This document shows positions 12,445 through 64,000 of a stretch of 64,000 nucleotides of DNA, in pieces (position 1 is the first letter of the stretch; each line of letters begins with the position of its first letter). Both the position numbers and the translations under genes were made by a program. The stretch is from Diphasiastrum complanatum. Taxonomy: Eukaryota; Streptophyta; Lycopodiopsida; Lycopodiales; Lycopodiaceae. The notes beneath the pieces are model-generated. The model was not told where the DNA came from. It did no database searches and saw nothing but the letters and a program-made list of their open reading frames with translations. Location: positions 27,348,178-27,412,177 of the forward strand of contig CM055109.1 of NCBI GenBank assembly GCA_029204225.1, in the 5' to 3' direction.

Positions 12445-12482
12445 CGTATTATTAAAAAACTTATTTATCATCTTATTCTATT

Positions 12483-13082
12483 TGCTTGGAATACAAAACT
12501 GGAGGATCTAGTTAAATCAACTATCAAGAGGTTGGAAGAAGTTCTTTTAATCTTGATGGATCCAACTATCGCTTGTGGTCATTTAAGATTAAAATCGTGC
12601 TAATGGCCAAGGAGTTGTATGATGTTGTCACAGGTGCAGAGGCAAGACCCGAAGCAGACAATGCTGCAATCTCTCAATTGAAGCTGAAGGATGGAAAAGC
12701 TTTTGCACTGATCATCCTCAACATATCAGACACACAAAATGGTCATGTGTTTGAAGCTTAGACCTCAAAAGGAGTATGGGACATCTTGAGCACACTGTAT
12801 GATCATGATGTAGCCTCCAAGCTACACCTCAGAAGGAGATTCTTCTCCCTCAAGATGAGAAATGGTGATTCATTACATAATCACATGAACCAGTTCAAGA
12901 ACTTGCTATAGCAAATAGCCATTTTCGGATCAGTCATAGACGATCAAGACGCAATAATGGCACTGCTTTCAAGCTTGCCAATATCGTATGACAACTGGGT
13001 GATGATGATCACTACACACCCAAAGTTGACTCTATCAAGGGTCGTTACAATGTTGCTACATGAAGGCAAGGAAACCATCTAG
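12483..13082 (+). pseudogene. Copia gag fragment
   Basis: Remnant of a copia gag (UBN2-type) region: SNYRLWSFKIKIVLMAKELYDVV, then KGVWDILSTLYD, SLHNHMNQFKNLL and a serine/leucine block before the usual zinc-knuckle region. It corresponds closely to the gag of Co-C on the other strand (37,989-38,398). In-frame stops occur at 12,759 and near 12,908. No LTR or primer-binding site is attached on its left, where it begins just after the Co-A LTR. Confidence 0.8.
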
Positions 13083-20575: not shown

Positions 20576-22066
20576 GATCGAGAGTAGCAGGGAGTTGAAC
20601 AACAGGCGAGGGAGGGAGCGGAGGAGAGAGAGAGAGAGAGAGCAGGCAGGCAGGCAGGCTAAGGAGAAGAGCGAGCAGAGCAGGCAGACAGACTATGAAG
20701 GAGACGAGCAGCAGGCAGCAAGCAGGACGAGCAGGGAATGGTGAAGGGAGCGGACAGGGAGGTGAAGCGAGCCGGGAGGTGAACAGGGAGGTGGAAGAAG
20801 TGCGGGATGTGAAAGGGGAAGGAGGCAACGAGCAGGAGAGAAGCTGAGGAGAGAGGGGAGCAGGCAGGCAGGTGTTGAGAAGGAGCAGGGGAAGGGACCG
20901 AGAGAGAGTAGGGGAGGGGGGTGAAACGAGCAGGGAAGAAGCGGAGGAGAGAGGGGAGCGGATCAGCAGAGAGAGGAGAAGGGAGTGAGAGAGAGTAGGG
21001 GAGGGGGGTGAAGCGAGCAGGGGGAAGCGGAGGAGAGAGGAGAGCGGATCAACAGAGAGAGGAGAAGGGAACGAGAGAGAGTAGGGGAGGGGGGTGAAGC
21101 GAGCAGGGGAAAAGCGGAGGAGAGAGAAAAGTGGATCAGCAGAGAGAGGAGAAGGGAGCGAGAGAGAGTAGGGGAGGGGGGTGAAGCGAGCAGGGGGAAA
21201 GCGGAGGAGAGAGAGGAGCGGATCAGCAAAGAGAGGAGAAGGGAGCAAGAGAGAGTAGGGGAGGGGGGTGAAGCGAGCAGGGGGGAAGCGAAGGAGAGAG
21301 GAGAGCAGACAGGCAGGTGCTGAGAAGGAGCAGGGGAAGGGAGGGATGGAGGTGAGTGGATGAAGGTGAGGGAGGGAGCTTAGTTGTAGGTAGGGAGCTG
21401 CGAGCTGGAGGGGAGGTGAAGGGAGAAGCGAGTAGCAGGGGGTGAAGGAGCGAGTAGGGAGCTGGAAGATGAAGGAGGGAGGAGCTATGGCAACGATGGT
21501 AGGCAATAAGCAGACATTGGCGAGTGAGAGAAGGGGGAGGGGAGATGGAGCTATGACAGCGAGCAGCAGGAGGTGAAGGAGGTGAACTGGAGCAGCAAGG
21601 AGATGAGCAGTGAAGGAGGGAGGTGGAGCGAGAGATGAAGGGGGCGGGCAGCGAGCAGGAGAAAGGAGCGAGCAGAGATGAGCAGCGGGGAAGGGGGAAG
21701 GAGCGGAGGAGCAAGGAGGGGGAACAACAAGCGAGGGAGGGAGCGAGAAGGGGGAGGGAGTGGAGATCACGGCAGGGAGGGAGGGAGTAATGGGAGGTAG
21801 AGAGGTAGACGGGATAGGAAGGAGGTGGAGCGATGAAGGAGGGTGGGGAGAGAGCAGCACAGTGGTAGTGAGAAAGGGAGCGGGTGAGGAGCGAGAGAGG
21901 GGATGAGAAGGGAGGTGAAGGGGGTGGATGAGGAGAGAGCAAGGGGTGCGAGCAAGAGGGGATGTGGTGCTGCGAGCAGCAAACGAGAGGGGGAGGGAGC
22001 GAACGAGCGAGAGGGGGTGGTGAAGGGAGGGGAAACAAAGAGAGAGCGGTAGCAAAGAGAGAGATT
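20576..22066. repeat. Purine-rich minisatellite tract of 1.5 kb
   Basis: The plus strand is overwhelmingly G and A for about 1.5 kb, with few C and T. Inside (about 20,873-21,310) an 86-87-bp unit repeats: the word GATCAGCA or its variants recurs at 20,961, 21,047, 21,134 and 21,221, each followed by GTAGGGGAGGGGGGTGAAGC. The minus-strand ORF of 558 codons across it is Ser/Pro/Leu-only low complexity, lacks any domain and is treated as a product of strand composition, not a gene. Such mirror-like purine runs can form triplex structures. Confidence 0.9.
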
Positions 22067-23807
22067 TTTTTTTTTTAAAAGGAGACTTGATCCATATCAA
22101 AACTGAGATTACGGCAATAAAAAACACTGAGCAATTTGAAAAAAATCTGACACAATATATAGCTTAAAAAAACATAATTAATCCCTTGAAGGCTTGGGTT
22201 TTTTGTAATGGACTTGGAAGATTTCGAAGAAATGAAAAAAAGAGGAGGTGAGGGGAGGATTGTTCGATGTATTTGCGACTGTGCAGACAATCAATTAATC
22301 ATGTTCGCGAACTATTCGTTTCTAGACAGAAGTCCTCAACAACTAAAGTCCAAATTAATGGCTAAAGAACACGAATAGTTTTAGAACACGTCAGAAACTT
22401 ATGTCAATGCCAATCAGGAAAACATATCAAAGACTCAATTCTTCAGATAGGGACTGTCATCTCATATGTATACATACAACTTTATTCAATGATCGTGCTA
22501 GACTGTACCAAAGATAGTCGTTATTCGAATGCTGAAAGAAAGTATTCGCGACAGACAAATAAGATGGTTTTAAGACAGTTCTTTAGAGCATGCTTTATGG
22601 ATACACAACAAACAACTGTAATGCACTAGAGCGTCTGTCTGATCAGAGAGTAATTCATGTAATGCGTTAGAGATTGTTAGCAGACTCAAGATCACTCACA
22701 CTCAGCAGTGCGGAGAACAGAGATAAGAGAGAATAACTCACAGAACTCTATTCACTTCTTCAATCTCTTACATATGCATAAACTCTTCTCTCCCGATGAT
22801 TGAGACTGAAGTGTGAGATCATATATGTTCTACAGGGTGAACAAACACACCTCTAAAACAATAGGTGCGTCGCTCCCGCGAAAGGGTCTAGTTAACAATT
22901 AGACTGAAAATACGTTCAATTATACCATGAAAGACATACTTAACTATGAGTTAAAGTCACTTTAACATGTCTCTTCGTATCTAATCGTTTCGTGTGGTCG
23001 ACCTAGTAAAGGTTATCCAACGTAATGTCTTTCCTATAAAAGGTCTCGTCCTTAATTACAAGGCAAGTACTTAGGAGATATATTCCTGAAAAATGACTTT
23101 AGGCCTCTTCATGATTTTTACTTAACCAGCTCATATCTTCATTTTCGAGTATATCATGTCATATTTATGTTGATATTCAATTTTTAACAATAAGGTGGCA
23201 TCACAAGATTTTTATACACATTTGTTGGTTTCAAAAATATCACAGGGTTGAGTATTGTGCACTGAGGGCAACCATAGCTGGGTGAGAGCCTTATGCAGAT
23301 TCGTTCTTGTGTTTGAGGCTTGAGGTCATTACATTTAAGTTTAGAAGCTAGGGGCTTGCATTCATGTTTCCCTAGCACCTTAAAGTTTTGTAAAGAACAT
23401 CCTTTTAGAAGTAAGGGCTTTATTTTATTTTTGAACGTTCATAGACGCTTTCAATTTTTTGAAGGGCTCAGTTTGCAGGAGCGGCTGCTTCAAAGATTCC
23501 TGCATTACCTATTACTGGATCTATTTTAGTTAGTGATTTACATCAGGCAGTTGATTTTGAGTAATTAGCTTACTATTTTAAGTTTTACTTAGTATTTAGA
23601 TAGCTTAATTCATTTTTGCCGTTCTATGGTATTATTTTAAATACGTCAATCTTCTTGTATGATCATGGATTTTCCCATCATTTTCAATAAAAGCAGAGAT
23701 ATTATTATTTCTATTGGCCTCTACATCGAAACTTGAGACAAGTCTAGATAGATTGATTTTTTTTATTTATTGAATAATTTCTAAGTACTAATTGTCAACA
23801 AGTCTCT
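22067..23807. other. Spacer, no gene recognised
   Basis: Mixed-composition non-coding DNA. The part 22,300-22,860 has LTR-like wording (dispersed GTCAGA/ACTCACA and an AGAGAATAACTCACAGAACTC stretch) but no matching partner, primer-binding site or coding region. The rest is AT-rich with short chance ORFs. Confidence 0.45.
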
Positions 23808-24160
23808 TTGTTTAATATGCCTGGATTTGAGAAATTTGCAAATGCATGTAAACGTCGTCATCAAGAGTCTCATGATGATGAGTCTTATGATATTGTGCCT
23901 AATGTTGACATTGATTTTAATTTTAATGAAAAACCTGAGGATGAAATTCTGCGTATAAAAAGGGCTAACAAGGCTTGGTTTTCGAAGTGGGTTGATGAGT
24001 TCGAGTGGATAAGATTCGATCAACAACTCGGTCGCATGTTTTGTAAGTATGTGAAAAAGCCCGCAATCAAAGTGAATTTGGTCTTAAGGGCTTGGTTAAT
24101 ATTCAACTTAGTGCCATAAAAAACCATGCAAAGTGTACTGCACATAAAATGATGCATGGG
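23808..24160 (+). pseudogene. hAT/TTF-type zinc-finger transposase fragment
   Basis: N-terminal part of a hAT-like transposase family protein with a TTF-type zinc finger. A short acidic leader is followed by AWFSKWVDEFEWIRFD and GRMFCKYV, the pattern of the W.F.WL...MFC.xC start of these fingers; the second Cys is replaced by Val. A one-base frame change near 24,075 then leads to GLVNIQLSAIKNHAKC and TAHKMMHG, which supplies the distal Cys/His ligands. The following catalytic core is absent. Recognition is from family memory, so the superfamily call is moderate. Confidence 0.6.
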
Positions 24161-24429
24161 CCATTATTGATGGTAAAAAATGTTTAGAAGCGGATATTTG
24201 TAAGCAAAGTCTTGTGATCAATAATTGAGTTTATTTTTTTATTTAAAGTTGCATATTTTATTGTTAAAGAAAATCTTGCTATTGCGAAATACCCAAAGAC
24301 ACTAATTCTTTTACGTATTTGTGACACACACAGATGTCCCTTGTGACCTTTATCTATTGGAGAATGCAAGAGCAAGCCCTTCAATTCTCTCGGTGCGTGC
24401 ACTACTACTGACTTAGTAGGCTAACACAA

Positions 24430-25150
24430 GAATATAATAATTTTAAAGCCTTTAATGTGTGGTGGTAGCGGAAGTGAAGAGCAAACAACCAGACAAAGCA
24501 ATTAGATAGCCAGACAAATCGTAGAAAAGCATTACAATATTGACACAAATCTGAACGCATAACCAAACAGAGCTATAATCAGATTAAGTATAATGAAATA
24601 TACAAGTCAATAATGCAGGCGAGCACAAAACAATAGCGGATGTAACCGCGTGCTTCACAAGCTAATCACAATCTGTAAAGGTTATGAACCTATTACTGAC
24701 AATCAATCTAAAAGAAAGAATCAATGCGCGAAGGCACCTACAATGTCTATCTCTAAATTACAGATTTGCTCTATTATCTTATGTTCTACATGTTACGCTT
24801 GACATTGAATACGCAGATGGTATTCAGTATATACACAATTTTTACAGGTGTGCAGACGAAGAAAGTATAAAAAGTGGATGTGTTGTCTGTGGGAGATCGT
24901 GTGTAGTTGTTGTCGTTGTCAAATCTGATTACACAGTGCATGGGATGAGCGTGAGAAGGTCGTGACATCAACCTTTGCTGAAATTAATGTTGATGAAAAT
25001 GCGAAAAATGCGACACTTTGACAAATGCCTTAAAAACTGATTTACAGGGTACCCTCACTTTTCCATTAGGGCACCTTTGGCATTTCTAGGGAAGTGTCAT
25101 CTTTTTCACCTGTGGAAATTTACTTGTCTTTGTTGCATCTTCATCATCCT
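24430..25150 (+). repeat. LTR-like dispersed repeat, copy 1
   Basis: The stretch GAATACGCAGATGGTAT, ACAGGTGTGCAGA.GAAG, GTGGGAGATCGTG, GCATGGGATGAGCGTGAGAA and GCGAAAAATGCGACACT is repeated, in the same order and strand, at 44,690-45,125; its right half also recurs at 40,555-40,860. The left part (ATAGCGGAT...AACCGCG) resembles the Co-C LTR at 39,090. It is most likely a fragment of an LTR from the same copia group. No coding capacity. Confidence 0.75.
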
Positions 25151-26859
25151 TCCAGCTATGGCTCCATCTAGCATGACTATGGCAGTCTCCCAACTAGTCT
25201 ACGCTATGGCTTCTCCAACTAGCTTGAGCAAGAGGATGGGAAGACGATAATGAGCATGGTGAGTATCCTGAGGGTAAGATCCACTCTTCTCTCTTTTCTC
25301 TCCTTAGTTTCTAACAAATGATGGCTTAACCTAAAAGATGAAACCCTAAACTAAATCTCATCCTCTAAGGCTTACCCTACTAGAGAATGGAGGGCCTAGA
25401 TTAACTTAACCTGTTGCCAGATGAATAATATACAATACAATGTAAAGTAACACAGTTCATGAAACCACACAAGGGAGAACACTCAAAGAGAAAGATAGGC
25501 ATGTATTGCAAATGAGGTTCTTCTCGAAAATGGACTCTTCCACTCCTATTTATACTTGGAGTGGTGGTCACTTACATAAATGCACTGTGGGACAAGTATG
25601 CCACATAGACTAACTTAATTTTGAATCATACTGGTGCCATGGGACAAACCCCCAATAGGCCTTTGTGACTAACTTTTACATAACTTGAAATTACATATCT
25701 ATGTGCAATGTCCATGGCAATTTAAACTTAGAACTAAATAACTTAAGCCAGTACGGATACCATAAAAGCCTAAACTTGTTGGGCAAGTTCTACGTTTAAA
25801 TCCTATCCTGCTTGTATTTTTTAAGACGTTCCGTAGGATGGCTAGAATATTCCTTGGAATATCAGCCTGCATTATCCCTCCGTTAAGAACTTGGCTGTCC
25901 CACGCCAAGTGCAATGTTAAGATCTCATTCCTTGTAGTGCTGGAGGAGTAAAAAATCGATGCAGTTTGTAGATGTGGAACTTTTTGTATAGTGCTGCTCC
26001 GTAGGAGATGAATCTTTGAAGAAGTATGAGTGTCTCCAGAAGATTTGAATTGAAGCAGAGTGGAGTTGGCTCGTTGATGACTTGCTTCTAATTGCTCATG
26101 CAAATGATTCAACGGATGATGTACACAAGCTTAGTATTTCTTGAGACATGATGCGAATGCCACACAAGGGTTTATTGAACGATAGTGAGATGAAGATGGA
26201 GTGGGTGTGATAGGGGGTGTTGTAATCTCGGAAGTGGTGAAGGTGGATAGATGGAAGGGGCTAGATGGATCAAAATTCCTTTGCTCATTACTGTCTTGCA
26301 AAAGCACTTTTGTCAGCAGAGGTTTCATGTTTGACATTTCTTGCAGCTGTTTGAATTCTTCACATAGTTCGATAGCTCTTCAAGCGGTCGCAAATGTATA
26401 GAGGCGTGTATGGCCTCATTTTTTTTTTCATTTGAATAATCAACAAGCTGTTAACTTGTCGTTTTTTTCTTCTTTGAACTTAAGACATGGGTCATAATCA
26501 TTGTTGAGAACCTCTAGCATCTTTGATTTTGTTGCTTCAAGCGCTGAACTATATCAGTGGTATGTTGCAGTTGTCGTAGATTTGTTTGCTTCACGAAGTA
26601 CTATAGTTGATAAATGAGAGCAGGTTCACATTGATCCATCGAGGAGGAATGATAATTTGAGACAAAAATGGGGGAAGTGAGATGAAGCTTCCAGATGTAT
26701 TATGTGGTGGAACATGAGGGAATGGATGGATGAAAAAGAAAAGTGAGATGGGTCTTGTGTGGATTTCCATATCTGTCCATAATATAACCAATGCTCTTTG
26801 TACAATTCTCCACGGAATCATCATTGCTCACTGTTTACTCAAATGTTTACAGATCCAAA
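25151..26859. other. Non-coding, possibly LTR-derived
   Basis: No domain is visible in any frame; the 137-codon minus ORF at 25,699-26,112 shows no recognisable motif. A TATTTATACTTGG element (25,549) preceded by hairpin-like GGAGTGG words suggests old LTR promoter sequence. I cannot assign more. Confidence 0.4.
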
Positions 26860-27480
26860 GGTCCAAAGGATCTGTTTACTACTGTTCTTTTACTTCTTGC
26901 TTACAGCTTCTACGGCTTGGTATTCTACTTGTTATCATGCTTCATGGCATTCGTTATGTGTGCTCGTGATATTACGATGCCAAACCAAGCAGAAGGGATA
27001 GATCGTCATTGTAGTATATTTTTGTCTTGCCTATAAGAGGACTACTCAGGGTCGAACTCTCTTGAACGCACTTACATTCTAACAGAGTTGCAAGCCAAGA
27101 ACGCTCATTCACAGATTAGAGTGCAAGAGTCTACAACTATTTACTCCTAAAAAATAATTGAATCAGATCCTAAATTTTACTAAGCTGAGTTACACTTGCA
27201 TAAATTGACAAACCAAGAAACAAGAAACTAATCTACAACATGTTAGAAGTCCAAGAATCAAGAAACCAACCAGTCTATTGATTCTTGGACATCCCAAGAA
27301 CATCAAGAACTGGATTGTAAAGAGATATGCAAGAACTACACCACAGATCCAGGCTATTTAGTTTACTAGAATGCTGGTTCCTACATTAATCCACAAACAA
27401 GAAAAGAAGCTAATCCACTCTAGGAAAGCAGCAAATCTAATCCACTCTACAATCCATAACCACACACAAAAGGAGGGAAG
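26860..27480 (+). repeat. LTR-like dispersed repeat with hairpin, copy 1
   Basis: Shared with 44,030-44,640: CATTCGTTA, CAGAAGGGA, CTTGAACGCACTTACATTCT, GCAAGCCAAGAACGCTCATT, AGAAGTCCAAGAATCAAGAA, GGACATCCCAAGAACATCAA and GATATGCAAGAA in the same order. Each copy contains a perfect hairpin formed by CCAAGAATCAA and TTGATTCTTGG about 27,249-27,291. Probably another LTR or leader fragment. Confidence 0.8.
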
Positions 27481-29263
27481 GGCAAGATCATAAATGCATT
27501 ACTCAAGAAACAAGCATGATCAAGGAGCTCAATGGATACACCAAACTCGTGAAGGCTCTTCTCATTTCAGCATGGAGTTGATACAATTCACAAAAAGCTC
27601 CTCTTCACAAAGAGAGAGTCTCTTAAATAAGCAAGAGAGCTCCTTAGGTGGCATCCTAGTGGAATTTCCACATTTCACAAATTACAAGTGGAATAATGCC
27701 CTCCACTAGAGGTCACCATTAAAATGTGGCTCACTCTACTTTCTTTAAGAGGGGTCTACTTGCATTTATTACATCTGTTTAGAGATACTAGTTCCTACAT
27801 GGTCATTCCATCTTCCGGGATTCACCATGAGGCTTACACAAAGGTGACCTCCTATTGGACTGGCTGTGAGAATACCTGGAAAAAATATCTGTTTGGTAGA
27901 CCAATTTATAATAGCATCATGTATTTCTCGGCTCTCATACTCGGCTCTCAGTCTTCATTAGTCTCCTCTTCTCAAAGACCTCCTTGGTCTAAGGTGAGAG
28001 GTGCTCTTGAGTTGTTCTCTCCGAGTATCTTGGGGATTCATCAGAATCAGCCAACATCATCTCACGCCTAATGTGTTGTCCTTGTTTAGTAAATGATGTA
28101 GAAAAGGTCAATTATGCTATATTTGTTGATGATGTTAATGCTAATTCTGTTTCTTTTCCAAAAGTGCAAAACATACAACTAGGCTTAAGTCATTGGAAGA
28201 AGAATTTGAATGTGTACCATTGAAGATGAAAATGATCCCCAACATATAATCGTCCAACAGAGCAAAAGTGCTTCACACGATTTGTGAGGTTTTGGAACTT
28301 GTATTGATTTATTTGAAAGTTGAAGATAGTATCCTATTTGAGAAAGTTTTATGTTTTAAATTTATTATCACAAGATACCTACTTGAATGCATTTATTTCA
28401 CAATCAACATCATCCACCATGAACCCATTTGGTTGCCAATTAGACTTCAATTTGTACATCTTGTCCTTTAGTTTGTAACCAAGGGACAATGTCACCAGTC
28501 TTAGATTTATGGATCAAATTTAACTGGTACATAAGCAACTATTTCGTTTGATATCGTACTAACATCTTTGTTATTTATCCACAACATTATGTGTGCATGT
28601 ACTGAATCTTGATTTTGAAATTCATAATGTTGCACTCTTTCAAGTATTGCTTTGGGTGATAAAAATTTTTGAACTTAAAAAAAAAAATATTTTAAACAAT
28701 TCACATCAATTTGAAATCTCTTAATAATCAATAATAATATTAGCAAGTTGAATTAAAATTCATATTCAATTTAATACACATTCATATTAATCTTAAATCT
28801 ATAAATCAGAATTCATATAAATATGTAATTCAAAGAATACTTTACAGTCTTTAAAAGATGAGATTAATTAATATAAACAAATAAATTTAAAAAATATATA
28901 TTATTATTTTTTGAAATATGTGTTTGTTCAAGAATTAGTTCTTAGTTGTTATTGATTAATTACAATAATGAAAACAAATGTAAAGGTAAAATTGTATTGA
29001 ATCGTGTAGAATATAGGTATATATATTGTTACATATAATCATATCATGATAATTTGCGTACCAAATATAAAGATTGTACTTCTCAACGAGTATTGTTGGA
29101 GAGACATGATTCGACGTTTGTGACGAAGTACAAGAAGAGTTTATCTATTTCATTCTAAAACTTGAAAAGTTTCAAAAGTAATCTACAATCACAAATTTTT
29201 AGACTAGAACATCCATACTAATTTTTTTAACTTAAGAAATTAAAATACAGTCATATTTTTTAT

Positions 29264-29265
<2 letters not shown>
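27481..29265. other. Spacer, no gene recognised
   Basis: 27,481-28,080 reads like LTR U3/U5 sequence (TTAAATAAGC TATA-like box, AGAGAGAGTC) without coding potential. From 28,500 the DNA becomes strongly AT-rich. No RNA gene or domain seen. Confidence 0.45.

Positions 29266-29349
<84 letters not shown>
29266..29349. repeat. (CT)n microsatellite
   Basis: About 42 uninterrupted CT dinucleotides in an AT-rich setting. Confidence 0.98.
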
Positions 29350-29352
<3 letters not shown>

Positions 29353-29720
29353 ATCTTACTAGTCTAAAATTCTGAAATCTATAAATTAGATTTCATATAA
29401 ACATATAATTTAAAAAAGTACCTTAGAATCAACTTTATTTGTGACTTGATTGTATTTGTTTCTTTGAATTTTGATTAGAATCTGTAAAAATATATATAGT
29501 TTTTAAATTCGTTAAATCTTAAATATGTTTTTAATTAATGAGATAATAAATCTAAAAAAAAAAATTATCTATTTTTGAAATATGTGTTTGTTTAAGAGTT
29601 AGTTGTTAGTTGTTATGTTAGTAATTTTGGCATAAAGCTAGTGGGAAATAGCAATTGTCTTCTCAAAAATTTATAAAAAAGAAGATTATGTCTTTCTCCG
29701 CGAAATTTTACATTTTTTTA

Positions 29721-29786
29721 TTTTGATTTTGATTTTGATTTTGATTTCGCTTTTGATTTCAATTTTGCTTTCGCTTTCGCTTTTAA
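29721..29786. repeat. TTTGAT/TTTCGC hexamer array
   Basis: Consecutive six-base units of TTTTGA/TTTGAT that grade into CTTTCG/CTTTTG units, about eleven units in all. Confidence 0.9.
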
Positions 29787-30048
29787 GTATATTAGTTCTT
29801 ATACGACAAGGGTGTAAATAATAAAATTAAATTTAAAAAATTATTTTGAAAAAATTGTACCTTTTTTCTATAGTGTATAAATATCAACAGATGTTTTTTT
29901 GCTACTCTTCATCGATCACTGTGAATCAAAATATTATTTTTTGAATCAATCTTTTTTTGTATCACTATTATTATTATCACATACAACTTGATGACTGTTT
30001 TTCTAAGTGCACTGTAAAATTATTATTTTGAATTTACACAGCATATAT

Positions 30049-30316
30049 TTCTTCATCATGCAACTTATTTTGCAAAGGAATATGGGAGCTTAAGTATCTG
30101 GTCATCACAAGGCATGGAAAAATCTCATTGGCAAGCAAGGGGAGCATTTCATAGAGCTACAAATCATGGAGGACACAATTCAAGAAATAAATATTTAGCT
30201 CAACTTTTTCAGTGGTTTTATAGAAGAGCACAATTTAGATATCAAGCTAAAACTTCGCTAAATGTTACGATTTTTCGAAAGACATTCAAACTCATTACAA
30301 AAGAGAGATTCTTGTA
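30049..30316 (+). pseudogene. C-terminal block of unfamiliar transposon (copy 1, inverted)
   Basis: A CAG acceptor-like site is not evident, but the frame reads TYFAKEYGSLSIWSSQGM, EKSHWQARGAFHRATNHGGH, KYLAQLFQWFYRR and ends at TAA 30,315-30,317. The same block is found at 63,792-64,000, where it is joined through an intron to the LDKLIGVIR block. In this copy the LDKLIGVIR block (32,003-32,160) is on the opposite strand, so the C-terminal exon has been inverted relative to the body. The WSSQGMEKSHWQAR/HGGH pattern is, from memory, like the C-termini of large uncharacterised transposase-like ORFs in other eukaryotes. Confidence 0.6.
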
Positions 30317-30345
30317 ATATATCAAAAATCTATTACAAAAAATCT

Positions 30346-31137
30346 TTAATTATCATCATCATCTTCTTCAAGATTCAGACGGATGGTATTGTCATGAAGG
30401 AATAATCTCCTTTCATATAGATCCAAAAATTCTAAATTTTTCCTATTGCTCATATCAATGTAACCCAAATAAAGGGCCATTGTAGATGATCTTTTTGTAG
30501 ACTCATTTGGAATATAACCCAATATTTTAATTTCCAAATCTCTTTTCACAAAAATTATTTTATATGTTCCTCTTGCGTACTTATGGCCTCCTAAATAAAC
30601 TGATAATGATTTGATGGCCATAATGACAGTGGTTGCATATGGATTAAAAGATGAATGATATATACAAGTCTCATTATTTTGAAAGTTTTTCAAATAATGA
30701 GATAGAGACACGTCCTTTCTCCCGGCTGATACACCTCAGACGCCTCCATGTCTCATACCAAAGGCATCTATTTCAATAACATCATGTAACCGAGTAAAGA
30801 AAATAAATTTAGAATGATACATAACAATGCAAACTCATACTACAACACAATATTTGAAATAAGAAATTTGAACAATATCAATACCAATATAATATCTATG
30901 TACCAGATCATAATCATCGTATTTGACGACGTTTGCTCTACTAATGTCATGTCCTCCAATGGCCTCTACATTTTCAGAGGGGATATATCGAGTCCTTGGG
31001 AGAGATTTTTTTTGGAATTCCAAAAATTCCTCTTCTGTAGGCAAAGTTTTTTCATAGGCTTTAGATTTTTCAATCATGGCCTGCAAGGCCTCATTGCCAG
31101 ATTTCCAATTGCCATTTATCATAATCTATCTCACTTT
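30346..31137 (-). pseudogene. 3' exons downstream of the C48 domain, function unknown
   Basis: Two minus-strand coding stretches. The first (31,137-30,890) reads GNWKSGNEALQAMIEKSKAY, LPTEEEFLEFQKKSLPRTRY, ISRANVVKYDDYDLVHRYYI. The second (30,715-30,346) reads SLSHYLKNFQNNETCIYHSS, IKSLSVYLGGHKYARGTYK, ILGYIPNESTKRSSTMALYL and ends with an Asp-rich EEDDDDN tail before TAA. I do not recognise either. Their strand, order and acidic terminus suggest they complete the gene that starts at 33,403, but the linking introns are not certain; a separate second gene of the element is equally possible. Confidence 0.45.
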
Positions 31138-31399
31138 CAAGGCCATCATATGTGTAATCAACAATGTCAGAAAATTCTGATAATTTTTGTGCAGCCATTG
31201 CAATTGGATATGAATTTTCGATCACAAGCTTTATGGTCTCTTACCTGAAGTGCATTATCTCCATTGGGGAGACCTTCGGGCATTTAAACTGAAAAAAACA
31301 AAAACACAGTTAAATGTTATTAATCAAAGATTAGTTATTAGGAATGTGATTATGAAAAAAAAAAAAAAACACAATTAAATGTTACTAATCGAAGATTAC

Positions 31400-31832
31400 C
31401 TCTTCCAGATTGGGAAGTCCATCTTGTAGTGCAAGTTAATTGAAAAAGTGCTTGGCATTGCATACCGTATACCAACCACAGCTGACAGAATCAACCTGCT
31501 GGGAGGACTGCAATATCCAATATAAACAAAAGTTAGTAACCAAATTTTAACACTATGTAATATCGGATTAGCACACAAGAGGTTATAATAAAATCTACAA
31601 CGGAAACAAGTGCACGTCGAACCGATATTGAAAATTTTTTACCTCTGTATCAACAAATTTTAACTTCGTATATGCTATTGCATGTGGTACTGGAAAGAGT
31701 TCTAGTATTTTCTGGATATGGCTCCTGGCAATTTTGTGAGTGTATGTAATAGAGTTCATCTTTAAACAAAATGGATTACACACACCCTCATCATTGACAT
31801 ATAAGGACAACATATATAAGCTCCCATGATTA
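31400..31832 (-). pseudogene. Ulp1-like C48 cysteine protease exons
   Basis: Two exons with clean splice signals: 31,832-31,643 (acceptor CAG, donor GAG|GTAAAA) and 31,507-31,400 (acceptor GCAG, donor GAG|GTAATC), joined in phase 0. The first reads NHGSLYMLSLYVNDEGVC and LKMNSITYTHKIARSHIQKI; its HGS-L-M-L aligns with the catalytic HWxL of SUMO/ubiquitin-like proteases. The second begins QQVDSVSCGWYTVC, the Q-x5-C-G-W catalytic segment (Cys codon 31,478-31,480). An Asn (MNS) stands where the family has the triad Asp (DS). A TAA follows 24 codons into the second exon. The protease would cleave isopeptide or C-terminal tags of ubiquitin-like proteins; here it is probably inactive. Confidence 0.65.
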
Positions 31833-32002
31833 CTGCAATCAGAAAACAATAAATTTATGAAAATGAATGTGAAATCAAAATTCATATTAAAAATTCAACT
31901 TAATAAAATCAGATAGAAATTTACTTACTTTGTTATGTACATCAGTAGAAAAAAATATAAGTCTGAATGAGATAAGTACCAGATAATGATATAGATTAGC
32001 AC

Positions 32003-32823
32003 CATGTAATGAGTACATTGTCTTTTTCCCAACAATCATGTATAAATTTTACAAATGTGGTGTAATGGATTTGCAAAGTCCTCATATTTTCTGATGATAG
32101 GTTTTCTTTCCTGATAACACCTATGAGTTTGTCTAAGTTGGTCCACACTTGTCTCGTTTTCACTCGATTACTTCCTTCCAATATTTGTCTGGCTTGAACA
32201 ATTTCTCTCCAAATTTCGTATTTGACACTTGATTCTTTGCATGTGTGATTGGATAAGAATCTTCTTGCTTTAGCACCTCCAATTGATGGCTTATTATGAA
32301 TGTTTCCATTTTTTCCGGAGAGTCTGTCACTTTTTTCAATTGTGACATTCCCTTTATATAGTCCTGCATTTTACAGAACTATTTTCAACCTCCTAATTGT
32401 TGCTTTAGCCACAGACTCTGGTTTATGATTCCATGCTAGTAGAATATGCAGGTAAATAAGTTTTTCAATAATACGAACCTCAACATGCAATGTGCATATG
32501 TGAACATTTTTAAATGGAATTGGCAAAACACTTTTCATATTTGGATCTTCAGCTTCTCGCGTTGGGCCAGTGTTTGTTGATCCCAAATTCATATTGTAGC
32601 AATCCTTCATGCAATTAAGACATGGATGCTTTGATATTGCCCCATGAGAGATATTATACATACATTTTAATGTTTTCAAATCCCCTGCATGGTGCCATTG
32701 AATTTAAAAACTTCCATGGTTTTCGACTATGAATTTCTCACCCTCCAAATGTCTGTTTATTATCTCGTCATAATTTGTTCTTGAAAATATCCATGTAAGT
32801 ATTTTATGGTCCTCTTTCAAGAC
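32003..32823 (-). pseudogene. Transposase-like core of unfamiliar element (copy 1)
   Basis: A long exon from a TCTCTACAG acceptor (32,824) to a TACATG|GTGC donor (32,002). Visible blocks: VLKEDHKILTWIFSRTNYDE, then QWHHAGDLKTLKCMYNIS, SKHPCLNCMKDCYNMNLG (a CxxC...C knuckle), FKNVHICTLHVEVRIIEKLI, then a block ending VWTNLDKLIGVIRKENLSSE. A TAA near 32,702, a stop at 32,371 and frame changes break it. The HAGD, CLNCMKDC and TLHVEVRIIEKL order resembles large transposase-like proteins with an RNase-H-type fold, but I cannot name a superfamily. Part of it (from AMTS.LKK on) is repeated at 63,330-63,692. Confidence 0.55.
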
Positions 32824-33090
32824 CTGTAGAGAAGCAAGTAATGCATGACATGTCAATAAAAACTGACAAGGTATGAAATGTTAATAATGATATTCTAAAT
32901 GAAAATTGAAATGTATATCTGGAATGCCGCCAACCACCATATGTGATTTTCTGATTAAACACTAAACGTTGTATCTAAAATTTTGTTCATCAATGTGACA
33001 CTCACTCATTCCAACTTTTGACCTTTGATGTTTCAAATTCATCCAATTTTATCACGATAATAATATTTCCATTTACTTGATGTTATTCAC

Positions 33091-33176
33091 TTTGGGATTG
33101 GCTCAGCTAGTTAGTTTGACATCCAAAGTTTCTTTGGTCTCATGTTCGAGCCTCCCATTGGAAACCAAGAGGCATT
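33091..33176 (+). repeat. tRNA-like SINE fragment, copy 1
   Basis: Shows a box-A-like TTGGCTCAGCTAGTTAG (33,099-33,115) and box-B-like TGTTCGAGCC (33,143-33,152), followed by GGAAACCAAGAGGCAT. The copy at 57,641-57,720 has the same order and the same trailing words. Spacing of the boxes fits a pol III internal promoter. It lies in an intron position of the minus-strand element. Confidence 0.6.
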
Positions 33177-33276
33177 TACTTGATGTTTGTCTAGTTTATA
33201 GAATCAAATAATGTATTTTAGAACATTTTTAAAATCAAGAAAAGTATTCAATTGCAATCATTGTAATTGAGCTCAC

Positions 33277-33403
33277 CATATTCTGATTTGTATAATTCAG
33301 TTATATGAAGTGGTTGGCCAACTACTTTGAACATTCCATCATTATAATAATTTCTTGGTAATCTTACCCGATATGGACGCGGAAGATAAGTTTTCTTCAC
33401 CAT
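33277..33403 (-). pseudogene. Possible first coding exon of the 30-33 kb element
   Basis: A 42-codon open stretch from ATG (33,403) reading MVKKTYLPRPYRVRLPRNYY and FKVVGQPLHITELYKSEY, ending at a consensus donor (TATG|GTGAGC). Protein-like composition and the good donor make it a plausible upstream exon of the transposon gene that follows on the same strand. Not seen elsewhere in the window. Confidence 0.4.
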
Positions 33404-33429
33404 CACTTGAAAAAAAGCTTCTTTAATAG

Positions 33430-34990
33430 GTATATATAATACAAAGTCGAGTCTATGGAAAATTTCAGGCCTCTTAGTTTTATCAAAATTTGTGGAAGGA
33501 ATCTTGTCGATCGGACCACACTTTGATCAACCATCTTGAGCTGACAAGTGGGTTTGGTGAGTTTGTCTCTCAGATTCCATTCTAACATGAGAGATATAGA
33601 GATGGTGTTGATACCTAAGCCACCATCTAACACAGCCAATACTTCACGAGATTGGCTATGAGTAGCTGGAATCTTGATATTGCCTCTTTTATTGAGCGGA
33701 TTTGTTAGCTGTAATGGCATTTCAGGTAGCTCATCATGGGTGGTGGTTTCGGTGGTTTGGAGTTGTTGTTTTCACTTACTCGCATGTTTTCATAGAACAT
33801 AGAAAGGGAGAATCATGTTAGCTTGTAACGGATCTTCCCAAACTTCAGTGCCTCCAAGGGTTTTAGTCTCAAAAGGCATGTGATGTGCGTGATGGAAAGT
33901 GGAAGAGTGTTGGTCTGCATTTTGAATTTGCTAACGATATTTGTGATGCAGTCTAATTTCTTCAGAAGGTTGAGGATATACAATGGGTGTAGAACCCTCA
34001 CTCGGGGGAATGTTGAGCTGCTGGATGTTGCTAGGTGCAATGGTAGGGGCTTGACGTTGGGTTTGTGCACGAGTCAAGACCAAGGCTGGCCGTGTTTTGA
34101 CTGGCAAGGTTTCTACCTGCACGGAGCATACAGGAGCAGCTGGTTTAGATCTGGAAGGACAATCCTTCACATGGTGTTCAATGCCACAATTTTCACAAGT
34201 TGGTGGAAAGAAAAGTTTGTATGGGCAGCGATTGTCATCCGCGTATTGCTGGAAGTTGATGCGTTGCAAACACAACTTGGTTAGGATCATAGGTTTCGAA
34301 ATTGGGATCAACCACTTGATCATTATGATCATAAAAATAATAGACGACTGTCTCAGTGGAGTACTCTGGTGGAGTAGTGTCCTCGACATAATAAGTTGTT
34401 GGGTCGATAGAATTGGGATCAATATAATGGACAACTTGTTGTGGAGTAGGTTGATTGATGACGAGAACTGTTGACGTGGTGGATATTCATTGGGTGCAGT
34501 TGGTCGTGGTTGATAGACTCCTGGTCGCGACATAGGTTGTTGTGGATTGTAAGCACGGTATTGCCGATACATGGGTCTGCTGGATTCTACCAGATAATGG
34601 TGTTTCAGTTGGGGACATCCATTGGCAGTCTGATTCTGCGAATAGATAGAACACCATATATTTGTCAGCAATATTTTTCATAGCAGTCTGGAAATCAGCA
34701 GTAAGTTTATCCATATGAGTTTCTTGAGCTTTCTGCCAAGTTTCCATTTGATATAAAAGTTCTGAGAATTAGGCGGTATTTTCGAACTTCTCAAATTTTT
34801 TTGATTTCTTTTCTATATTATCAAAGTCCTCATCAGACCCCTCGTCTTCTTCGCAGATGGCATCAGTCATTACATCCTTGAGTTGGTCATAAAGGTCAAC
34901 TGGTTTTAGTTCTTGTAGATATTTTTTGGAAGTCCAACCAGGAGCAATTTGATGGCCATTCGTTCGGTAATATTTTTGTCAATACATTCT
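33430..34990 (-). pseudogene. Gy-C gypsy gag and protease fragment
   Basis: Minus-strand gypsy gag to protease. From right to left: gag (about 34,990-34,490; GWTSKKYLQELKPVDLYDQL, acidic EEDEGSDEDF, METWQKAQETHMDKLTADF), a Pro/Gln-rich segment (34,671-34,250), one CCHC zinc knuckle CENCGIEHHVKDC (near 34,190), and a protease start with EVLAVLDGGLGINTISISL (33,720-33,430). The protease triplet is DGG where D[ST]G is expected. Several frame changes separate the parts. The fragment stops where the exon at 33,403 begins. Confidence 0.8.
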
Positions 34991-36399
34991 ACCTTGAGTC
35001 TTTAGACGTGCTAGAGATTATCATGACACCTATCAAGAGACATTGAGAGATTATTAGTAGTGAAGATTGGAGACGAACAATGTCACTTCCAAAATTGTCT
35101 CACATTGAAGTACATTGAAATTTTTGCATCTCGTTAGTATCTTCTTATGGTTAGAGATAAAATGAAGTTAATATCACATGGCATGCCATGTGCTACGTAA
35201 TCGATGAACCATGGGTAGAATGAAACTCACAAAACATTTACTTGCAGATTGTCAAAACCCAAGGCAATGCCAACAATTTCTCTCAAACCTCCCTTCTGCA
35301 AATGATGTCCAAATCACAATCAACAAAAACAATCCAAAATGCTCTCCATAACCCAACGCCATACATCTGAAGCAACATGCAAACATCAAAGCAAAATTTT
35401 CATGCTTGCCACATACTTTCAACACAATGACTACATGCAACAAGTAACACATTCAAAGCTCCATCTCTAGCTCTTATATTTGCAAAGAAAGAGTAAATGT
35501 GAAAATTTGCGCTTTTGTTTGTAGAAAGAAAAAGTGACTCCTACCGAGAAAGAGGGCAAATTCTACTTTTGCATGTGAAAAGAGAGAATAATCTAGACAC
35601 CTTTTTGTGCACTTCTAAAATTATAGAATGTTATGAAAACAAGGATGTTGTGGTTTACAACAAAGGCATTGCCACAAAATTCATTACAAGAAGGTTGTGG
35701 TTTACCACACAAAGATTGCCACAATTTTTATGAATGAAAGATGTGATTGTCTAAGATTGGATGCAAGGTGATTAGTTATTTTCAAATCTTAGTTTTCTGG
35801 GAAGGATTTAACTTTAATTCAAAGTGTGTGCATAAGTACAAATATGACAACAGCAAAAAACATATATGAAAATGATTTTGTGATTGCAAATAGACAATCT
35901 TTATTTGATTATTGTTGGTGGTGATGATGTTGGGGCATCATGCACGCTGAGAGCCTAGGGATGCATGCAAGGGAAAGAGACGGACTTTTTTGTTATTCAT
36001 GACTTGCATAAAGAGGTGCATGCATGCAAAAAAAAAAAGGGAAATTTTTTTGCTATTTACAACTTGCATATAAAGGTGCATGTTCTTGCAATAAAGTCCT
36101 TAGCAATGTGACAAAGCTTTTTGCGCACACATCCCCTTATGATTTAAGACATTGATTTTAATATCAACTTTTGGATAAACTCGGCTCCGCTTATTTTTAG
36201 CACCCTAATGGGTCCTGCCAAGCACGTTAGGGTAATGTTTGCACCATAGTACAAACATGTACAATTTGAGTACTATCTCAAACTTGTTCTTCACAAAAGC
36301 TTGTTTATCACAAAAGCCAAAGCAATCAACTGGAGCTCAAGGGAAAAACCTAGGAGGGAAGACAAAGACAGGCTTAAGAAGTTTAGTGTTTGTACTATT
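34991..36399. other. Spacer, no gene recognised
   Basis: Non-coding DNA with a pair of related words, GTTGTGGTTTACAACAAAGG and GGTTGTGGTTTACCACACAAAG (35,650-35,715), and two TTGCATAAAGAGGTGCATG-like lines (36,002-36,080). Possibly the Gy-C leader; no LTR ends found. Confidence 0.45.
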
Positions 36400-36795
36400 T
36401 TTGTACGATTGCCAGTTAGCTGGTGTCCGCTGACATTCATCCAGTTCAAAAATTGATTGCTAATAGGCGGTCGAAATTGGTCGTAAACAGTCTGTTTGCA
36501 TAAATGAACCAAAACTGTCGCTTTGTAGAAATGAACTAAAACTGCCACAACCGAAGGTGTCGCAAAAATACGACAATGTCGGATTTTTGCGAAAAATGTG
36601 ACAGTGACCTTAAATCTCATTTAGTATTGCCCCACACTTTGCCAGAGTCATTTTCTTAACATTTGAGGCACTTAGACTACATTTTAAGTCGTAATTCCTT
36701 TCAGGCAAAAAAGACAACATTGCATTTTTACACGAGATTCCTGACAGGCGAAAAATGCGACACTATTGTCAAACTCTGTGTATTTTTGCAGATTG
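36400..36795 (-). mobile_element. Co-C 3' LTR remnant
   Basis: Matches the outer part of the 5' LTR at 39,395-39,745 in the same orientation: GATTGCCAGTT, GTCCGCTG.CATTCATCCA, CAGT.TG.ITGCATAAATGA-type words, AGTCATTTTCTTAA and CACTATTGTCAAACTCT. The inner (R/U5) half is missing. It bounds the Co-C deletion derivative on its 3' side. Confidence 0.7.
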
Positions 36796-54379: not shown

Positions 54380-55340
54380 ATTGTTGCAACCAAATGAGAG
54401 AGAAAACTGCTTGGATATTGAAAGTTTTAGTAGAAGCAAGCTTAGATTTTGGCATCTGCAAATGCCACCCCACAACAGAGAAGCGGTGCATATATTCACG
54501 TCATTCTTTATGACATCAATGGAGAAAGGTGGCGAGCGTGCAATAAAGAAGTACATTAAACCAGGGTTGAAACAAAGGCGGGTCTTCATCCTTCCTTACA
54601 ATGCATAGTAAGTGGTATCATTTTGTATAGACATTTGAATGTGGTCTACATTAGACTAAATACCTGGTCTAATAAATACTTTGTCATCTGTTTTGCAGTT
54701 CTCACTGGAGTTTGGGAATTTTGGGTATGCACATTGACAAGGAGGACATATGCCACTGGACGGGACTAACATGCAACTCAATGGATACCACCCATGTTGA
54801 TATTGGAAGGTAATGCCTCAAATGTGTCCCCTCTTATGCGATGTTCAATTGCCAAAGATCCCCATGAGAAGTCAACATTTTCTATATTTGTGCAATGTAT
54901 AGGATCATGGAAAGCGTCGCCTCATTGCTGTCTTGTGCATCCACTCAACAACATTCCTTTCGCATCTTCGATGCCTAGGTACCTTAAAACACTAATCATC
55001 ACAATATATATAAGGGATAGATTGTTTAAGAATGCTTACATTCTCCTTGACTAAACATGCAGTCTCCACAACAAATGGATGCATATAGTTGTGGATGGTT
55101 CACAATCAAGAATGGAAAAAAATTCATGGAATGGTTTGCTGAACATGAAGGACGACTGTGTTTAGACTTGGTAAATGCAAATGTGTTGCTTGTTTGTTAA
55201 TGTATGCTTCATGGAACACATCATCAACAAGCCTAATTTTTTCCGTGCTCCAAAGTTTGTATGTGGCAATTGTCGAGTTGACATGATTTACAAGTTTCGA
55301 GAGGAGATGCTGCAAATTTTCTTGGACAACGCATAACGTA
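54380..55340 (+). pseudogene. MULE Ulp1-like C48 protease domain
   Basis: Cysteine-protease domain of the SUMO-protease fold. Exon one: RSKLRFWHLQMPPHNREAVH, TSFFMTSMEKGGERAIKKYI, RRVFILPYNA. An intron (donor GTAAGTGG at 54,609, acceptor TTTGCAG) precedes SHWSLGILGMHID with the catalytic His (codon 54,703). LTCNSMDTTHVDIG has Asn where the triad Asp is usual. A short exon (IMESVASLLSCASTQQHS) ends in TAG at a splice donor. The last exon begins SPQQMDAYSCGWFTI with the oxyanion Gln and catalytic Cys (55,090-55,092). After a frame change FMEHIINKPNFFRAPKFVCG leads to the final TAA near 55,337. Confidence 0.82.
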
Positions 55341-57640: not shown

Positions 57641-57720
57641 ACGGGGCTGGCTCAACTGGTTAGCTTGGCATCCAATTTGGTCCCAGGTTCGAGCCTCCCC
57701 TTGGAAACCAAGAAGCATTA
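57641..57720 (+). repeat. tRNA-like SINE fragment, copy 2
   Basis: Box A TGGCTCAACTGGTTAGC (57,648-57,664) and box B GGTTCGAGCC (57,686-57,695) are spaced as in a tRNA gene and look like its D and T arms, but no acceptor stem or anticodon arm closes. GGAAACCAAGAAGCAT follows, as in copy 1 at 33,091. Confidence 0.65.
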
Positions 57721-63326: not shown

Positions 63327-63329
63327 AAG

Positions 63330-64000
63330 ACTACATAAAGGAAATGTCACAATTGAAAAAAAGTGATAGACTATCTGAAAAATCGATAATTTCCTAATAA
63401 GCCATCAATATGAGGTGCTAAAACAAGGAGATTCTTATCCAATCACACATGCAAAGAATCTAGTGTCAACTATGGTATTTGAAAAGAAATTGTTCAGCCA
63501 CACAAGATTTTAAGAATAAAGGAAGTACCCGAATGCAAAAGGCACAAGTGTGGAAGAACTTTGACAAACTCATAGGTGTTATTAGAGAGAAAAACTTATC
63601 ATCAAAAGATATTAGTAATTTGCAAAAGTATTGCACCACATTTGTAAGATCTGTTGAGATTGTTCAGGAAAAACCTCATCACACATTACATGGTAATGTT
63701 CTATTATTTTGATGATATTACTATAAAATTAATCTCAGTCATAATGTTACTTATTTCTATTGATGCTACTTATTTCAACTGATGTTTGCAGCACATCATA
63801 CTACTTATTTTGCAAAGAAATATGGGAGTGGAGCTTAAGTATCTGGTCATCCCAAGGCATTAAAAAATTACATTGGCAAGCAAGAGGAGCATTTCATAGA
63901 GCTACAAATCATTGTGGACATAATTCAAAAAATAAATATTTAGTACAATTGTTCCAGTGGTTTTAAAAACGAGCATAGTTTAGATATCAAGCTAAAAACT
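63330..64000 (+). pseudogene. Unfamiliar transposon, copy 2 (partial, runs off window)
   Basis: Two exons. 63,330-63,692 matches the minus-strand element at 32,003-32,365, including AATGTCACAATTGAAAAAA, TCTTATCCAATCACACATGC, and protein blocks VWKNFDKLIGVIREKNLSSK and YCTTFV. A 99-bp intron (donor ATG|GTAATG, acceptor TTTGCAG) leads to 63,792-64,000: HHTTYFAKKYGSG, SIWSSQGI, LHWQARGAFHRATNHCGHNS and LVQLFQWF, matching 30,049-30,240. Several stops (63,393, 63,708, 63,964) mark it as dead. Here both blocks are co-linear, which gives the ancestral order. Confidence 0.7.

Follow-up and report, generated by a model that had tools for sequence, protein, structure and literature searches.

Transposase and C48 protease exons side by side in a decayed region, best read as a rearranged transposon relic

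Transposase and protease exons at the locus

Within the window (the whole stretch of DNA analyzed here, 64,000 nucleotides), the locus carries a transposase-like exon, hereafter exon A, which is followed on the same strand by exons of a C48 (ULP1-type) protease, while a further exon, holding the presumed last catalytic residue of the transposase (the E exon), faces the other way. Together with the copies and relatives that were found elsewhere in the window, the features are as follows.

12445-12546, plus strand: fragment of exon A (tblastn, 62% over 34 aa, E 1.9e-7)
30018-30317, plus strand: frame holding the putative transposase E exon, with YGSLSIWSSQGMEKSHWQARGAF; inverted relative to exon A
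30346-30735, minus strand: 129-aa open frame, KIIFVKRDLEIKILGYIP..LDLYERRLFL, downstream of the C48 exons
31288 to ~30904, minus strand: third C48 exon, FKCPK.. plus a C-terminal extension; one stop and then a frame change; end uncertain
31400-31507, minus strand: C48 exon holding the Gln/Cys segment SSQQVDSVSCGWYT and interrupted by one in-frame TAA; matched by the MULE C48 gene in tblastn (41% over 34 aa, E 4.9e-6)
31643-31832, minus strand: C48 exon containing the His segment, NHGSLYML, behind a phase-2 acceptor, placed by alignment to the MULE C48 gene
31833-32002, minus strand: junction or intron separating exon A from the C48 exons; probable breakpoint region, where similarity to the 63 kb copy ends on the exon side at ~31991
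32003-32823, minus strand: exon A, recognized by its motifs and by its copy at 63 kb (79.8% identity), from which the donor position was also taken by homology
54381-55336, plus strand: MULE C48 gene, assembled by eye from five spliced stretches; 54381 marks where the sequence used begins, the exon start itself being unproven
63329-63694 (exon end at 63692), plus strand: second copy of exon A, 3' part; nucleotide identity calculated over 371 columns (blastn/tblastn within the window)
63792-63997, plus strand: the E exon again, here in the same orientation as the exon A that precedes it, and running off the end of the window

The three motifs by which the earlier note had recognized a transposase-like exon on the minus strand (HAGDLK, CLNCMKDC and TLHVEVRIIEKL) do share a single frame, running from position 32823 downwards, with GDLK as the presumed second-D motif and CLNC as the C(2)C pair. 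Two in-frame TAA codons interrupt this frame before the homologous donor, and a third follows the donor. The length of such frames says little here: the locus DNA has a G+C content of 33%, and dinucleotide shuffles of 30001-32900 yielded an open reading frame of at least 110 aa in 44 of 300 cases and of at least 124 aa in 21 of 300. Since frames of this length are unremarkable at such a composition, the case rests on repeats and homology instead, and the recurrence of exon A at 63.3 kb and 12.4 kb marks it as more than a chance frame, i.e., as part of a repeated element. Relative to the locus copy, differences at the three codon positions numbered 18/18/23 for exon A at 63 kb, 7/7/8 for the 12 kb fragment and 7/4/12 for the E exon, a distribution that lacks a clear sign of coding constraint between these copies. 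All three transposase copies are decayed. A Copia-type gag remnant was seen by eye on the 3' side of the fragment at 12445-12546.

The C48 exons and the MULE at 52 to 55 kb

The protease segments that had been described for the locus are HGSLYMLSL, in 31643-31832, and QQVDSVSCGWYT, in 31400-31507, both on the minus strand and flanked by AG and GT dinucleotides. The yardstick for these exons lies in the same window: at 52 to 55 kb, a MULE transposase (PF10551, E 6.3e-13) is followed by a C48 gene, the product of which matches PF02902 with 30.2 bits (cutoff, 20.7) and SENP2 with an E value of 8.8e-7. Over the spliced stretch this gene is nearly intact, with a single stop, located at an exon end. 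When the exons at the locus were aligned with it over ~125 aa, the score was 145, whereas 2,000 shuffles averaged 26 and reached 48 at most; this bears out the earlier identification of a His and a Gln/Cys exon. The active-site order of His, Gln and Cys is present, with NHGSL and QQVDSVSCGW at the locus aligning with SHWSL and QQMDAYSCGW in the MULE gene. At the place of the catalytic Asp, where C48 proteases usually have Asp-Ser, both have Asn-Ser (MNSI at the locus and CNSM in the MULE gene). Three introns, one ahead of the His exon (phase 2) and one on either side of the Gln/Cys exon, also have the same positions and phases in the two. The genes differ in that the MULE gene has one additional intron and has kept its first exon (with the ..VFILPYN.. 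strand), for which no counterpart was found at the locus, a weak test given how highly diverged even the shared exons are.

Searches with the locus exons themselves returned less. PF02902 did not match them at E ≤ 10 in Pfam-A, either as such or as a chimera with ten MULE residues; the Gln/Cys exon aligned with SENP8 at an E value of 0.11; and a search of the PDB with the frame of the first C48 exon gave chance-level matches only. Judging by the alignment with the MULE gene, the C48 exons at the locus are nonetheless genuine and of a known gene type. The frame at 30346-30735, which had no Pfam match and did not recur elsewhere in the window at E ≤ 1 apart from one chance-level match, may represent the C-terminal part of the same ULP gene. 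With stops in both genes, the locus copy should neither transpose nor cleave.

Native order of the transposase exons

The order in which the transposase exons originally stood is shown by the copy at 63 kb. There, exon A ends at position 63692 with the donor CATG/GTAATG, and the E exon begins at 63792 after TTTGCAG, so that a 99-nucleotide GT-AG intron separates the two and the frame continues unbroken across the join (VQEKPHHTLHAHHTTYFAKKYG). At the locus, the E exon (30054-30252, plus strand) is 86% identical at the nucleotide level to 63794-63997. The native gene thus runs from exon A through a 99-nucleotide intron to the E exon, an order seen in the sequence itself, with splicing predicted from the two sites. 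No C48 sequence lies between exon A and the E exon in the 63 kb copy, whereas at the locus the C48 exons separate exon A from the reversed E exon. The 63 kb copy is itself dead, carrying stops, frame breaks and a 5-nucleotide insertion in the E exon that breaks its frame, and at the place of the catalytic E it has a K, as opposed to the E of QGMEKSH at the locus.

Type of transposase

According to PMC12730594, the CMCT clade, with RAG1, includes EnSpm/CACTA, Mirage, Chapaev, Transib, Plavaka, ESTA and Lanisha (for the last of which Maumus, McDaniel and Carey 2020 is cited there), and its hallmark is the presence of a C(2)C and an H(3-4)H motif between the second D and the last E. In exon A, the D that we take for the catalytic second D stands in a D-19-CLNC arrangement. 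The 63 kb copy reads HHTLH at 22 residues ahead of the E position in the composite of both copies (the locus copy differs there), and HICTLH in exon A represents a second candidate, of the H(4)H type. The hallmark pattern with its spacings was encountered in 10 of 5,000 shuffles of the composite and in 3 of 360 six-frame blocks of the window, the composite being assembled from two decayed copies, with the E taken from the locus, and the spacing windows being chosen after RAG1 and CACTA spacings. Membership of the transposase in the CMCT clade is thus supported but not proven: the C(2)C after the putative second D and the H(3)H before the putative last E resemble the clade, whereas the way in which the spacing windows were chosen, the composite nature of the sequence and the second possible H(4)H leave the support short of proof.

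Other features expected of the clade were not recovered. The first D was not located, with the second D lying in exon A and the E in the inverted exon. At E ≤ 10, no Pfam transposase family matched the pieces of exon A, the read-through exon, the A+E join or the E frame; Transposase_21 (EnSpm/CACTA; presumably PF02992) and KDZ (the Zisupton group, for which we assume that Pfam includes a model) were not among the matches. Of the profiles that the earlier note had named for a search with a family consensus (C48, MULE, Transposase_21 and KDZ), none matched the pieces of the locus. Toxin_15 (E 0.087) and DUF7859 (E 0.11), two names that did appear on pieces of the locus, were below cutoff and were dropped as unrelated chance matches. 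The earlier note had further stated that the core matches neither the MULE nor the CACTA signature and might be an undescribed lineage; the lack of a Pfam transposase match agrees with the first part of that statement, but the D..C(2)C..H(3)H..E layout is the hallmark of a clade to which CACTA belongs.

Other collections added little. In IMG/VR no convincing relative was found (two loci only, each with 31% identity over 42 aa, which we took as chance), none of the seven pattern matches on GTDB contigs was a relative, and PDB searches with the A+E join and with the H motif plus E exon gave matches at chance level only. An AlphaFold model of exon A, made without an alignment, was unusable (mean pLDDT, 34.1). 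The ends of EnSpm/CACTA elements are CACTACAAGAAA-like; matches to this sequence with up to two mismatches occur 16 times in the 64 kb, compared to 10.0 expected, and 5 of 100 shuffles contained as many. No terminal repeats or target duplications were found at the locus, 24000-36500 having been scanned for inverted repeats; CMCT elements are described as having 5'-CA..TG-3' termini and target duplications of 2 to 5 bp (PMC12730594).

A proposed inversion

We tentatively propose, with a probability of roughly 0.45, that the locus is a broken transposon of the CMCT type, the E exon having been inverted together with part of a convergent ULP gene. The intact element would have encoded a DDE cut-and-paste transposase of the CMCT (CACTA-like) type, its exon A (second D and C(2)C) being spliced to the E exon and the H(3)H standing just ahead of the catalytic E; such a transposase would be expected to cut at terminal repeats by means of its RNase H-fold DDE site. 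Downstream, on the opposite strand and most likely tail to tail with the transposase gene, there would have been a ULP1/C48 gene, putatively part of the same element, the product of which might have aided that element as a SUMO or ubiquitin-like protease. A single inversion, with one predicted breakpoint in the A-E intron and the other in the ULP intron preceding the His exon, would then have turned around a segment comprising the E exon and the 3' part of the ULP gene, bringing the protease exons right behind exon A in the orientation of the latter and leaving the E exon facing backwards at the far end of the segment.

One such event would account for the order of the exons, for both orientations and for the missing ULP exon. 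The stops of the E frame and of the frame at 30346-30735 face each other, tail to tail, at a distance of 28 nucleotides, and this short gap fits the proposed inversion, as does the reversed ULP gene of the KI-MULEs. Transposons carrying ULP genes are already known among both MULE and CACTA elements: according to PMC2528002, ULP genes follow MULE transposases in either orientation and occur in CACTA families as well, and in KI-MULEs (Kaonashi) the ULP gene is reversed relative to the transposase. The ancestral element as proposed here would resemble KI-MULEs in having a C48 gene near the transposase in the opposite orientation. Unlike ULP-carrying MULEs and CACTA-ULP elements, the locus has no MULE transposase that we could find, both of its genes are broken, and the element that they would have shared is putative only.

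Two expectations under the inversion found no support. At the predicted breakpoints, the alignment of intron remnants was not significant: 141 of 500 shuffles did as well for 31833-32002 and 63 of 500 for the other breakpoint, with 245 of 500 and 433 of 500 for the opposite-strand controls. The displaced first ULP exon was not found outside the MULE itself, including on the plus strand below 30 kb, where it is predicted to lie, although high divergence of the shared exons makes this a weak test. Within 24000-36500, a search for inverted repeats of at least 30 nucleotides, which shorter ends could have escaped, yielded none longer than 35 nucleotides; the four pairs that it did find (32 to 35 nucleotides, 71 to 81%) do not enclose the whole locus, and the terminal repeats that the earlier note had suggested looking for were therefore not recovered. 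One of the pairs, 30082-30114/31795-31827 (33 nucleotides, 73%), was considered as an arm of the inversion and dismissed, the sequence just upstream having stayed with the E exon.

Alternative readings

Since the breakpoint test was not significant and the first ULP exon was not found, a serious competitor to the inversion is that the C48 exons are a piece of some other element (in the simplest case, a MULE or pack-type relic akin to the MULE at 52 to 55 kb) nested in or abutting the broken transposon, with the inverted E exon resulting from a further rearrangement. We regard this as a real possibility: the only other C48 gene found in the window follows a MULE transposase and is related to the locus exons by homology and common introns, and the 63 kb transposon copy goes from exon A to the E exon without any C48 sequence. 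However, tblastn of 22 to 38 kb with MULE transposase and SWIM pieces gave no convincing match (best E, 0.70), PF10551 was absent from the locus in a Pfam search of its pieces and of two of the three minus-strand frames of 22001-36000, the long terminal repeats of a nested element were not seen in 24000-36500, and the inverted E exon demands at least two events. (DUF3915, the sole name returned by the scan of the two minus-strand frames, in which stops were written as X, was below cutoff and was dropped.) The absence of recognizable MULE transposase similarity from 22 to 38 kb agrees with one half of an earlier suggestion, namely, that a family other than the MULE is accompanied here by the same protease type; the other half, in which that protease forms one gene with this transposase, is unsupported.

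Indeed, exon A and the C48 exons are probably not parts of one gene, in spite of their adjacency, their common strand and the presence of GT and AG dinucleotides, which speak for the reading of the earlier note, a transposase exon followed by spliced protease exons. There is precedent for such a fusion, as CACTA-ULP proteins with Tnp2 and ULP1 domains have been reported in grapevine and rice (PMC2528002). However, the donor of exon A is in phase 1, its one base meeting the two bases contributed by the E exon, whereas the C48 acceptor is in phase 2, as in the MULE gene; exon A joined to the C48 exons at that donor would be out of frame unless another donor was used. This mismatch, the failure to find an upstream protease exon at the locus and the in-frame continuation of exon A into the E exon at 63 kb lead us to consider a fused gene improbable. 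A transposase lineage outside all named superfamilies, and not of the CMCT type, is less probable still: the missing Pfam transposase family (E ≤ 10) and the lack of convincing relatives in IMG/VR and among GTDB contigs would suit it, but the C(2)C and H(3)H of the CMCT hallmark are present, and absence from those viral and prokaryotic collections says little.

The best reading, then, is that the locus is a rearranged relic of known kinds of elements and not a new one. Novelty could lie in the precise lineage of the transposase and in a possible native association of the protease gene with it. We think it rather unlikely, though worth stating, that the transposase represents an unnamed land-plant lineage of the CMCT type, beyond the reach of Pfam's CACTA models, which natively carries a convergent ULP1/C48 gene shared with MULEs of the same genome. 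Should the protease gene turn out to belong natively to a CMCT-type element, with intron-for-intron homology to the one in MULEs of that genome, the locus would become a test case for accessory genes crossing between plant transposon superfamilies, comparable to the TET/JBP genes exchanged between transposon superfamilies in fungi (PMC12730594). As it stands, the analysis is a correction: transposase and protease exons that adjoin in a decayed region do not amount to a gene.

Neighboring genes and repeats

Decayed elements crowd the region, and exons that adjoin by chance are to be expected there. Retroelement domains were detected by Pfam in 3 of the 10 frames scanned, and a NAC-domain gene (PF02365, E 1.1e-49), indicative of a land-plant genome, lies at 728-1273. 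Directly upstream of exon A, a Gypsy-type remnant with zinc-knuckle and aspartic-protease-like/gag sequence was seen by eye (33403-34980, minus strand); in the frames scanned, this stretch of ~33.4 to 35.0 kb had no Pfam match. A frame at 23778-24119 (plus strand; WFSKWVDEFEWIRFD..GRMFCKYV), likewise without a match in the Pfam scan, appears to us to resemble the N-terminal zinc finger of hAT/TTF-type proteins. Similarly, a short frame at 28507-28674 (minus strand) contains EFQNQDSVHAHIMLW, which we take to resemble the HUH Rep motif of Helitrons, and has a weak, below-cutoff match to PF23343 (E 0.017). Upstream of exon A, at 33099-33176, lies a SINE that looks tRNA derived (boxes identified by eye) and is 82% identical to a second copy at 57648-57719. 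Finally, a long AG microsatellite (~29267-29350) is flanked by two direct-repeat pairs of ~84% identity, 28791-28844/29371-29425 and 28880-28961/29545-29626.
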